A stretch of DNA of 64,000 nt from Marinitenerispora sediminis (GTDB lineage Bacteria; Actinomycetota; Actinomycetes; Streptosporangiales; Streptosporangiaceae), in assembly GCF_003336425.1 (NCBI RefSeq), contig NZ_QEIO01000004.1:1-64000 (forward strand), written 5' to 3'. The position numbers and the translations under genes were made by a program. Below the pieces are notes generated by a model. It had not been told where the DNA came from. It ran no database searches and saw nothing but the letters and a program-made list of their open reading frames with translations. This document shows, piece after piece, positions 3,840 through 6,942 of this stretch (position 1 is its first letter; each line of letters begins with the position of its first letter).

Positions 3840-5129
3840 ATGGCAGTCAACAGCCGGCTTTCCGGCTTGAAGGACCTGTCGATCAGCGAGCGCCGCGCCC
3901 GCGTCGCGGACAGCACCGCTGTGGAGCCGACGAGCCTCGAGGTACTGGACCCGGAGCACGGCCTCACCATCGAGCAGGCCGACCACATGGTCGAGAACGC
4001 GGTCGGCGTGATCGGCATCCCGCTGGGCGTGGCGACCAACTTCACGATCAACGGTCGCGACTACCTGGTCCCGATGGCCACTGAGGAGCCGTCGGTGATC
4101 GCCGCGGCCAGCAACGCCGCCCGCATCGCCCGCGGCACCGGCGGATTCGCCACCTCGACCACCGAACCGCTCATGAGGGCGCAGATCCAGGTCGTCGACG
4201 TCGCTGATCCGCGCGCCGCCCGGCTGCGGCTGCTCGAAGCCCGCGACGAGCTCATCGCGCTGGCCAACGAACAGGACCCCCAACTCGTCCGCTTCGGCGG
4301 GGGCGCCCGGGACGTGGCCGTGCACGTGGTCGACGCTCCGGCCGGCACGTATGTCGTGCTGCACCTGATCGTGGACGTGCGCGACGCGATGGGCGCCAAC
4401 GCCGTCAACACCATGGCAGAGGCGGTCGCCGCGCGGATCGGCGAGGTCGCCCAGGGCCGCTCGCTGCTGCGGATCCTCAGCAACAAGGCCGACCTGCGCC
4501 TGTGCCGAGCGCGTGCCGTCTTCGACGCTGACGCCCTCGGGGGCGCCGAGGTGGTCGACGACATCGTGCACGCGGCCGCCTTGGCCGAGGCCGACCCGTA
4601 CCGGGCCGCCACCCACAACAAGGGGATCATGAACGGCATCACCGCCGTCGTCCTGGCCACCGGCAACGACACCCGTGCCGTCGAAGCCGGCGCCCACTCC
4701 CACGCCGTCGGGCCCGACGGCCGCTACACCTCGCTGTCCCACTTCGAAAAGGACGCCGACGGCAACCTGGTCGGTGCTCTGGAACTGCCGATGGCGGTCG
4801 GCCTCGTGGGAGGAGCGACCAAGGTGCACCCGGTCGCGCGGGCCGCCGTGGCGCTGCTCGGAGTCGCCACCGCCCGCGAACTCGGCGAAGTCATCACCGC
4901 CGTCGGCCTGGCTCAGAACCTCGCCGCGGTCCGTGCACTGGCGACCGAGGGCATCCAGCGCGGCCACATGTCGCTGCACGCCCGCAACGTCGCCGTCACC
5001 GCCGGAGCCACCTCCGAGGAACTGCCCCTGGTGGTGGCCCGGTTGACCGCCGACCGCGCGGTGAGCGGCGACCACGCCGCGAAGATCCTCGCCGAGGTGC
5101 GGGCCGGTCGGCGGGAGAACGCCCGATGA
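3840..5129 (+). CDS. mvaA: hydroxymethylglutaryl-CoA reductase, class II (degradative)
   Basis: A 429-residue class II HMG-CoA reductase. In catabolism this soluble enzyme oxidises mevalonate with NAD and CoA to HMG-CoA. The active-site elements are all readable: E83 in MATEEPSV, the class II signature DAMGANAVN near 182, K261 in THNKGIMNG, D277 in GNDTRAVEAG, and the histidine region GHMSLHARN near 376. The length equals the Pseudomonas mevalonii enzyme. TAAGGA precedes the ATG. Its stop overlaps the next start as ATGA, so it is coupled to a small membrane protein and then a permease. No HMG-CoA lyase is in the window. Biosynthetic use cannot be excluded, but no other mevalonate-pathway gene is present and class II enzymes are usually catabolic. 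Confidence 0.93.
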   Translation: MAVNSRLSGLKDLSISERRARVADSTAVEPTSLEVLDPEHGLTIEQADHMVENAVGVIGIPLGVATNFTINGRDYLVPMATEEPSVIAAASNAARIARGTGGFATSTTEPLMRAQIQVVDVADPRAARLRLLEARDELIALANEQDPQLVRFGGGARDVAVHVVDAPAGTYVVLHLIVDVRDAMGANAVNTMAEAVAARIGEVAQGRSLLRILSNKADLRLCRARAVFDADALGGAEVVDDIVHAAALAEADPYRAATHNKGIMNGITAVVLATGNDTRAVEAGAHSHAVGPDGRYTSLSHFEKDADGNLVGALELPMAVGLVGGATKVHPVARAAVALLGVATARELGEVITAVGLAQNLAAVRALATEGIQRGHMSLHARNVAVTAGATSEELPLVVARLTADRAVSGDHAAKILAEVRAGRRENAR

Positions 5130-5587
5130 GGCCAGCCGAGCCCCACCCCGGCCACCAGGACGACCAGTCCTACGTCGAGGTGTGGAACGACACCGTCGAC
5201 CTGCGCCACCTGGCCGCGTCGCTGGTGATCGGCGTGGTCGGCGGGCTGCCGCTGTTCCTCCTCGCCCGCGCCGTGCTGCGCGGGTGGCTGGACACCCTGG
5301 CCCTCGCCGACGGCTACGCACTACTGGCAGGGCTGGCCGGCTGCCTGGCGGCGGGTGCCGTCTGCGCCCGGCGGTTCCCGCCCAAGCGCGTCTTCACCGA
5401 CGACGCCGAGACATCCGCGGCACTGCGGCGCGCGGCCTTGGCCGAGCTGGCCCGGGACACCGACACCACGACGCCCGACCTGCTGCCCGCCGCTGTGCGG
5501 AGCGAGCTGGCGGAACTGGACCTGCTGGAGGACCGAGCGGACTCCGAGACCGGGGCCCAGCGTCCGGAAGGAGCCGGATCACGGTGA
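5126..5587 (+). CDS. small membrane protein, TctB-like position
   Basis: A 153-residue protein with two predicted membrane helices (about residues 28-50 and 60-82) and a charged, acidic C-terminal tail. It overlaps the reductase by ATGA and the following permease by GTGA, so all three are translationally coupled. Tripartite tricarboxylate transporters use a small membrane subunit (TctB, normally four helices) with the large TctA. This protein sits where TctB would be but is shorter and shows no recognisable TctB signature. A role as accessory subunit is inferred from gene order. Confidence 0.7.
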   Translation: MRPAEPHPGHQDDQSYVEVWNDTVDLRHLAASLVIGVVGGLPLFLLARAVLRGWLDTLALADGYALLAGLAGCLAAGAVCARRFPPKRVFTDDAETSAALRRAALAELARDTDTTTPDLLPAAVRSELAELDLLEDRADSETGAQRPEGAGSR

Positions 5588-6942
5588 TCACCGACCTGAT
5601 ATGGGCCCTGGGCATGGGCCTGACCGGTGCCCTCGTCTTCGCCGGGATCGGCCTGGTCTCCGGCACGGACGAGACCTCGACGCTCGGCCCCCTCACCCTG
5701 CTGGTGGTACTGCTCGGTGTCCCGCCCGCCGGGGTGATCACCTTCTTCCTCGCCGGCGCGGTGGCCAAGCACATGACCCACGCGATCCCCACCACGCTGC
5801 TCGGGATCCCCGGCGACACCACCGCCGTGCCGCTGCTGGAAGACGCCCGGGCGATGCGCCGCATCGGCGCCCCGCACATCGCCCTGCGCAAGGCCCTGGC
5901 CGGCGGCCTCCTCTCGGCCGCGATCGCCGTCCCGGTCTCGGTCGGCGTCGCCTCGCTCCTGGCACCCTTCGCGGAGCCGGTGCAGGAGGTCATCCCGTAT
6001 GTGTTCGTGGCCGTCGCCCTGCTCGTCGCGTACTTCTCGCCGGGCCGGTGGGCCGCCGTCGCCGGGCTGGCCCCGTTCACACTCGCCATCGCCGCGCTGA
6101 GCGGCTTCGCCCAAGGCGTGCTCGACAAGCCACTGAGCATCAGCTTCTTCCTCGGCATCGCGATCGGGCCACTGGTGATCGACCTGCTCATCGCCGGGTC
6201 CCGCTCCGGCCGCGGAACGCTGCCACGCAGCGCGGGCAAGGCGTTCTCACTGGCCCCGGAAGCCGTCGCTTCGTACAGATGGTTCCCCAACCCCTTCCGG
6301 GTACTGACCCGGCGGCAGGCCGGTACCACCGCGGCCGTCGCCGCGGTGACGTCCACGACCTTCATGCTCAGCCCGGTGGCCACCGCCGTCATGGCAGGCG
6401 AGGTCGTCGGCGCCCGTATCAAGCATCCCTACCAGCGGCTGAGCACCCTGATGTCGGTGAAGAACGGCACCACGGAGTCGACCTACATCGCCGAGACGCT
6501 CATCCCCCTGATCGCCTTCGGCCTGCCGCTCAGCCCCGTTGCCGCGGGCCCCGCCGCCGCTCTGTTCAACGCGCCCCCGGTCTTCACCGTGGAGGGCCGC
6601 GTACACAACCTGCACACCCTGCTGTCCACCTGGCAGTTCCTGGTCTTCGGTCTGCTCGCCGTCGCCATCGCCGCGCTCGTCGTCTACCCCCTGGCGATGC
6701 GGCACGCCCGCACCGCCAGCGCCTGGGTCGCACGCAGGATCAGTCACGAGGCGCTCATCGGGGCGTTCGCCGGGCTGATCTGCGTGGTGGCCTGGTACGA
6801 GGGCGGAGTGCTGGGGCTGCTCGTCACGGTCGCCGTCGGCGCACTGGCGGGAGCCTTCCACCGCCTGCTCGGCATGACATCCGGCGCGCAGTACATGGCC
6901 TTCTACGTGGCCACCCTCTTCGTCCCCCTGCTCACCACCTGA
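5584..6942 (+). CDS. TctA-family large permease subunit
   Basis: 452 residues with many hydrophobic segments. It resembles the large subunit of tripartite tricarboxylate transporters, with the glycine/proline-rich motif TTLLGIPGDTTAVPLL at residues 70-85 and a second related motif near GLPLSPVAAGPAAALFNAPP. The family imports carboxylates using an extracytoplasmic binding protein (TctC). No TctC is present here, so it either works without one or borrows one. The GTG start overlaps the upstream stop (GTGA). Context with a class II HMG-CoA reductase points to mevalonate or a related C5/C6 carboxylate as substrate. That substrate is inference. Confidence 0.82.
   Translation: MITDLIWALGMGLTGALVFAGIGLVSGTDETSTLGPLTLLVVLLGVPPAGVITFFLAGAVAKHMTHAIPTTLLGIPGDTTAVPLLEDARAMRRIGAPHIALRKALAGGLLSAAIAVPVSVGVASLLAPFAEPVQEVIPYVFVAVALLVAYFSPGRWAAVAGLAPFTLAIAALSGFAQGVLDKPLSISFFLGIAIGPLVIDLLIAGSRSGRGTLPRSAGKAFSLAPEAVASYRWFPNPFRVLTRRQAGTTAAVAAVTSTTFMLSPVATAVMAGEVVGARIKHPYQRLSTLMSVKNGTTESTYIAETLIPLIAFGLPLSPVAAGPAAALFNAPPVFTVEGRVHNLHTLLSTWQFLVFGLLAVAIAALVVYPLAMRHARTASAWVARRISHEALIGAFAGLICVVAWYEGGVLGLLVTVAVGALAGAFHRLLGMTSGAQYMAFYVATLFVPLLTT

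Follow-up and report, generated by a model that had tools for sequence, protein, structure and literature searches.

Among the closest described relatives of the system reported here is the mvaAB operon of Pseudomonas mevalonii, a mevalonate operon that codes for 3-hydroxy-3-methylglutaryl-coenzyme A (HMG-CoA) reductase (HMGR) and HMG-CoA lyase. A TRAP protein that binds mevalonate has reportedly been described in earlier work. In the excerpted text of PMC5812351, tripartite tricarboxylate transporter (TTT) systems are composed of TctA with 12 transmembrane segments, TctB with four, and the binding protein TctC. The same excerpts give TctA as a probable ion-gradient symporter, call the role of the four-segment TctB unknown, and describe bacterial TctA proteins that lack a TctC as rare. 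Two engineered mevalonate importers, MCT1 F360C and an evolved yeast JEN1, appear in the excerpted text of PMC12405511. Here we examine a 64,000-nucleotide stretch of DNA from Marinitenerispora sediminis (the window; contig NZ_QEIO01000004.1), in which a gene for a degradative class II HMGR is followed by genes for a small membrane protein and a divergent TctA-superfamily permease (Table 1). Judged by sequence comparison, this trio is very probably a mevalonate catabolic operon, wherein a two-subunit mevalonate importer that needs no binding protein is encoded together with the first catabolic enzyme.

The locus resembles mvaAB in its degradative class II HMGR, which can be aligned over its full length with the P. 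mevalonii enzyme (1qax, E=2.4e-126), and in most relatives a lyase gene adjoins HMGR. It differs from mvaAB in that the window operon lacks a lyase gene and carries those for the small protein and the permease. As in TTT systems, the permease matches PF01970 above the cut-off and a small membrane protein is encoded beside it. However, the operon has no TctC, the small protein has two predicted transmembrane segments rather than four and no detectable similarity to the two TctB proteins of the genome, and the permease belongs to a separate, low-scoring subfamily. TRAP (DctP-DctQ-DctM) importers take the same place at some Burkholderiales HMGR loci, and we propose that they do the same job. They represent an unrelated permease family with a binding protein, whereas the window carrier has none. 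MCT1 F360C and JEN1, as presented in the excerpts of PMC12405511, share carrier-type mevalonate uptake, but these are mutant eukaryotic monocarboxylate carriers, whereas the window carrier, if our proposal is true, represents a natural bacterial family.

A sequence-only reading of this DNA had presented the three genes as translationally coupled and "fused by overlap". The frames, coordinates and overlaps are as it claimed: the HMGR stop and small-protein start share ATGA, and the small-protein stop and permease start share GTGA. The fusion is one of start and stop codons, and no fusion protein is encoded. The three predicted products are likewise borne out by TIGR00532 for the HMGR, an AlphaFold2 model for the two-helix protein and PF01970 for the permease.

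The HMGR scores 426.7 bits against the "degradative" model TIGR00532 (cut-off 259.95), 62.4 bits against the NADPH model TIGR00533 (cut-off 441.8) and 361.8 bits against PF00368. Its EEPS, HNKG, TGND and RGHM motifs align with those of 1qax, and the catalytic Glu, Lys, Asp and His, presumably E83, K267, D283 and H381 of the P. mevalonii enzyme, are in place. By these comparisons the HMGR is a plain member of the known degradative class II family, and it would oxidize mevalonate and CoA to HMG-CoA using NAD. The genome (6.0 Mb in 441 contigs, 99.3% complete) contains a single class II HMGR, and no HMG-CoA synthase was detected in it. A biosynthetic mevalonate pathway was therefore rejected as the role of this enzyme.

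The permease matches PF01970 (TctA) at 56.6 bits (cut-off 28.9), and the two ordinary TctA proteins of the same genome score 508.8 and 481.7 bits. The earlier designation "TctA-type" holds as membership in this family, with the relationship being a distant one. NCBIfam has no family for the window permease or for 29 of its relatives. The small protein has two predicted transmembrane helices, with an EVWxDTV motif conserved before the first and PKR after the second in the alignment. It has no Pfam or NCBIfam family, and 37 homologues yield no consistent one. Its identification as TctB was rejected, as no similarity was detected (hhalign probability 0.4%) in a comparison with the two TctB sequences of this genome. 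The AlphaFold2 models of permease (pLDDT 83, pTM 0.81) and small protein (two long hydrophobic helices, pLDDT 83) are of fair confidence. No solved structure is related to either protein by sequence, and Foldseek returned no structural relative at E<=0.001; thus, the predicted folds give no substrate clue and locate no binding site. We propose that the small protein might serve as an accessory subunit of the permease, and for the carrier as a whole we infer substrate, direction and energy coupling.

The trio recurs in other genomes and is conserved across phyla, which rules out a chance arrangement. When 84,980 species genomes were scanned, the query being an alignment of ten permeases, 254 relatives emerged, and the best 80 of them were retained. 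Among these 80 loci, HMGR is present at 78 (on the same strand as the permease at 77), and a small-protein homologue adjoins the permease on the same strand at 79. HMG-CoA lyase is found on the same strand at 54 loci, whereas 23 have HMGR on the same strand and no detected lyase. Small-protein and permease genes, with starts that are approximate, overlap by four bases in 41 of 79 pairs and by one base in 20. TctC-like matches occur at only four of the 80 loci and never between HMGR and permease. The best 80 include loci from Actinomycetota (Amycolatopsis, Prauserella, Saccharopolyspora, Nocardiopsis, Microbacterium, Brevibacterium, Rhodococcus and others), from Pseudomonadota (Pseudomonas, Burkholderia, Cupriavidus, Achromobacter, Bordetella, Acinetobacter and others), and from one metagenome-assembled genome of Acidobacteria. 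The unit is not peculiar to the window genome.

The same linkage is seen in narrower and less biased samples. Class-wide, the permease was found in 9 of 394 genomes and adjoins HMGR in eight of them; its weakest match (E=1.5e-184, with the limit set at 1e-10) shows the subfamily to be sharply bounded. In the family of genome G641, the permease is present in 26 of 301 genomes and adjoins HMGR in 22. In a set of 11 genomes from the window's order, every divergent PF01970 protein (11 in all, 53-93 bits) is located beside HMGR. Of the other 42 PF01970 matches, the full-length ones score more than 420 bits and a few partial ones less; on the contig that carries HMGR, none comes closer to it than 10 kb (nearest 13 kb, several assemblies being drafts). 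Six plasmid records also carry the permease. The three that were inspected, from Lichenicola cladoniae (lichen), Roseomonas mucosa (glacier) and Rhizobium etli (bean), bear the RefSeq labels "hydroxymethylglutaryl-CoA reductase, degradative", "hypothetical protein" and "tripartite tricarboxylate transporter permease", with "hydroxymethylglutaryl-CoA lyase" annotated nearby. RefSeq annotation already displays the neighborhood, and names neither substrate nor subunit. At a Pseudomonas locus (L129:7379-9455 and 11456-12700), an OprD-family porin gene follows the permease, and genes for CaiB and a MaoC/FAS1-type dehydratase are located between lyase and small protein.

When loci are collected by the enzyme, the importer beside it is found to change. 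HMGR is present in 25 of 297 genomes of the window's order, and 11 of these, window included, have the permease. Among the other 14, five have an MFS carrier on the far side of the regulator (with, in one case, an additional Opp-type protein at a distance of 6.8 kb), and Opp-type (two), Liv-type (one) or NMT1-type (one) binding proteins occur 5-7 kb from HMGR at four more; the remaining five HMGR loci have none of the tested importer types. A homologue of the window regulator adjoins HMGR at 23 of the 24 other loci of the order, and GAF-HTH_30 regulators are also found beside HMGR at two Burkholderiales loci (L251, L261). In one Burkholderiales family, HMGR is present in 85 of 268 genomes, and 40 of its 87 loci were examined. 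Every one of the 40 has exactly one of three unrelated importers, never two: TRAP at 15, with its genes directly before HMGR, a Liv-type ABC system at 14 and the TctA-like permease at 11. These counts are not independent, because the TRAP loci correspond to an HMGR branch approximately 50-54% identical to the query, versus 68-86% for the rest. The exchange of unrelated importers at the locus of one enzyme is expected if all of them carry the substrate of that enzyme. A PDB search with the TRAP binding protein of L271 revealed no relative named as mevalonate-bound. At four loci of the window's order (L035:1699-9272, L036, L039 and L040), genes for hydantoinase/oxoprolinase A and B, a CaiB CoA-transferase and an enoyl-CoA hydratase adjoin HMGR, with family assignments tested on L035 alone. 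These genes perhaps serve anhydromevalonate or related acids.

No DctM or DctP match is located near HMGR (window 1-14000), and the earlier assertion that the permease is from a different family than the TRAP mevalonate importer is upheld by its TctA-like PF01970 match. The sequence-only reading was also correct that no binding protein is present: a TctC-type gene is absent from the window, and both TctC genes of the genome belong to two complete, ordinary TctABC systems elsewhere. Its statement that there is no HMG-CoA lyase is true of the window, which therefore does not unite HMGR and lyase in one operon; lyase-family genes of uncertain function do occur elsewhere in the genome. The lyase model NF004283 has three matches there, only one of which is above the cut-off (271.3 versus 246 bits). 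Candidates for the lyase step thus exist, and none is secured.

The mevalonate uptake-and-oxidation unit proposed from the window is supported more strongly by this comparison than by the window itself, because of the near-obligate linkage of permease and HMGR, the frequent lyase, the exchange of importers and the absence of a synthase. In the proposed mechanism, the small protein and the permease would together form a two-subunit secondary importer that brings in external mevalonate with no TctC, which would fit a carrier of lower affinity and high capacity. HMGR would then run oxidatively (mevalonate + CoA + 2 NAD+ to HMG-CoA + 2 NADH), and a lyase, which most relatives encode within the operon and which in this genome would have to come from another place, would cleave HMG-CoA into acetyl-CoA and acetoacetate. 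Mevalonate probably induces the operon through the divergent GAF/PucR regulator.

Table 1. Features of the candidate mevalonate operon and its flank, in window coordinates.
Feature	Position	Strand	Remarks
HMG-CoA reductase (HMGR), class II degradative	3840-5129	+	429 aa; ATG 3840, stop TGA 5127-5129
Small membrane protein	5126-5587	+	153 aa; ATG 5126, stop TGA 5585-5587
Divergent TctA-superfamily permease	5584-6942	+	452 aa; GTG 5584, stop 6940-6942; proposed mevalonate importer
GAF + PucR-type HTH_30 regulator	1357-3402	-	Pfam GAF_2, GAF, HTH_30; divergent from operon; proposed controller
Intergenic region, regulator/operon	3403-3839	.	expected operator and promoters, from position only
2-hydroxyacid dehydrogenase	247-1215		beyond regulator as seen from operon

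One locus of the G641 family, L155, might reveal a route that dispenses with HMGR. Its genome, that of an actinobacterium and rated 100% complete, lacks a class II HMGR. At L155:6766-13330, a lyase gene (NF004283, 351.3 bits) follows the small protein and permease genes, and ahead of them lie genes for an aldehyde dehydrogenase, a zinc alcohol dehydrogenase and a CoA-transferase of family III. The best model for this last enzyme is succinate-glutarate CoA-transferase, which it matches below the cut-off. Together, these enzymes could convert mevalonate via mevaldate and 3-hydroxy-3-methylglutarate (HMG) to HMG-CoA, a chemically equivalent second route, which is represented by one locus and by broad enzyme families whose assignment to mevalonate is provisional. 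The permease tree places L155 among the HMGR-linked permeases on a long branch (support 91/89, which is modest), suggesting that HMGR was replaced and the carrier kept. That the carrier constitutes a new two-subunit, binding-protein-free mevalonate family, present in at least two phyla and on plasmids and serving both the HMGR route and an HMGR-free route, is a tentative proposal to which we give slightly less than an even chance.

Several observations weigh against the mevalonate importer as proposed. That the carrier takes up and transports mevalonate is something we infer from the genes. The query was built from HMGR-linked permeases, and so the best 80 of the 254 relatives are biased towards linkage, while more distant ones may be less linked. 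The permease is only weakly related to ordinary TctA (hhalign probability 18%), and the name permease thus derives from the Pfam match and the structural model. Some permeases also occur apart from HMGR. The L124 genome has the permease and no class II HMGR match, on a contig that starts just before the permease, and in Brevibacterium oceani (L138) small protein and permease are present and no HMGR match was found in the genome. In addition to L155, the four G641-family exceptions comprise three permease fragments (L201, L202 and L203). Concerning the lyase, the best-scoring match (L059:8026-9132; G000:C410) departs from the family after GGxGGC and lacks the usual C-terminal part, and it is either a pseudogene or an assembly fault. 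A second match is full length, has the conserved motifs and adjoins a CoA-transferase-like gene, but its score of 198.9 bits is below the cut-off. As to the surroundings of these genes, an aminotransferase-like gene precedes small protein and permease at L138:9492-11371, and the truncated lyase adjoins what we take to be a CTP-synthase-like gene. Fragments of a GAF/PucR regulator are located beside the permease fragments at L201 and L202, which look like decayed operons, and no neighbor was recognized at L203.

The permease might instead import a relative or precursor of mevalonate (HMG, 3-methylglutaconate, anhydromevalonate or mevalonolactone), with HMGR handling its product. Many HMGR operons (L035, L052 and L129 among them) carry a CaiB-type CoA-transferase together with a MaoC-like protein or an enoyl-CoA hydratase, which would suit other free acids, and the lyase is common to all these routes. 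However, HMGR is the sole catabolic enzyme of the window trio, no lyase was detected at the 23 loci noted above, and imported HMG would require a CoA-transferase and no HMGR. Mevalonate is also the only substrate we could conceive that accounts for both HMGR and its replacement by the two dehydrogenases, and we consider a different imported acid unlikely. The HMGR reaction is reversible, and this, along with the lack of a binding protein, as is usual for exporters, would permit the carrier to act as an overflow valve, expelling mevalonate made by HMGR from surplus HMG-CoA of leucine breakdown. Such export is very improbable given that the HMGR is of the degradative type, that no synthase was found, and that a lyase shares the operon at 54 of 80 loci; moreover, in relatives this locus carries TRAP or ABC importers, which depend on binding proteins. 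Least credible, with the slimmest of chances, is an ordinary tricarboxylate carrier that is a mere neighbor of HMGR and borrows a binding protein from elsewhere in the genome. Membership in PF01970 and the presence of two TctC genes would be consistent with this, but the linkage extends across phyla, both TctC genes are parts of complete TctABC sets, and the subfamily is separated by a wide score gap from full-length ordinary TctA proteins of the same genomes.

Degradative HMGR and mevalonate catabolism are already known, and what is new is the association with an uncharacterized importer family. The carrier family looks widespread, and it looks uncharacterized in the open-access literature searched, which excludes older subscription papers on P. 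mevalonii and in which no link of mevalonate to TctA/TTT proteins or to any natural bacterial permease was found. Mevalonate is the feedstock for isoprenoid production, and biotechnologists have lacked an importer for it. If our proposal is true, the 254 relatives would offer many candidate genes of a natural family that could be tested directly and put to use, and a function would be gained for an orphan TctA-superfamily branch and for a "hypothetical" membrane protein. A TctA-type permease without a binding protein is the rule for the whole subfamily, versus the rarity described in the excerpts of PMC5812351. The proposal would also suggest that free mevalonate is widely used as a nutrient, and fungi, plants or lichens perhaps release it.

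The operon segment was likely acquired horizontally. The window's permease and HMGR both cluster with sequences of Pseudonocardiaceae and allied taxa, their nearest relatives being from Pseudonocardiaceae, and the permease is 73% identical to that of Amycolatopsis deserti versus 58-60% to those of the Nocardiopsis group, which belongs to the window's own family. A 152-bp direct repeat, 85.5% identical between its copies at 18-169 and 7126-7277, brackets the segment. The right copy overlaps a tRNA-Met gene (7205-7279), and the left copy is degenerate and was not called as a tRNA.

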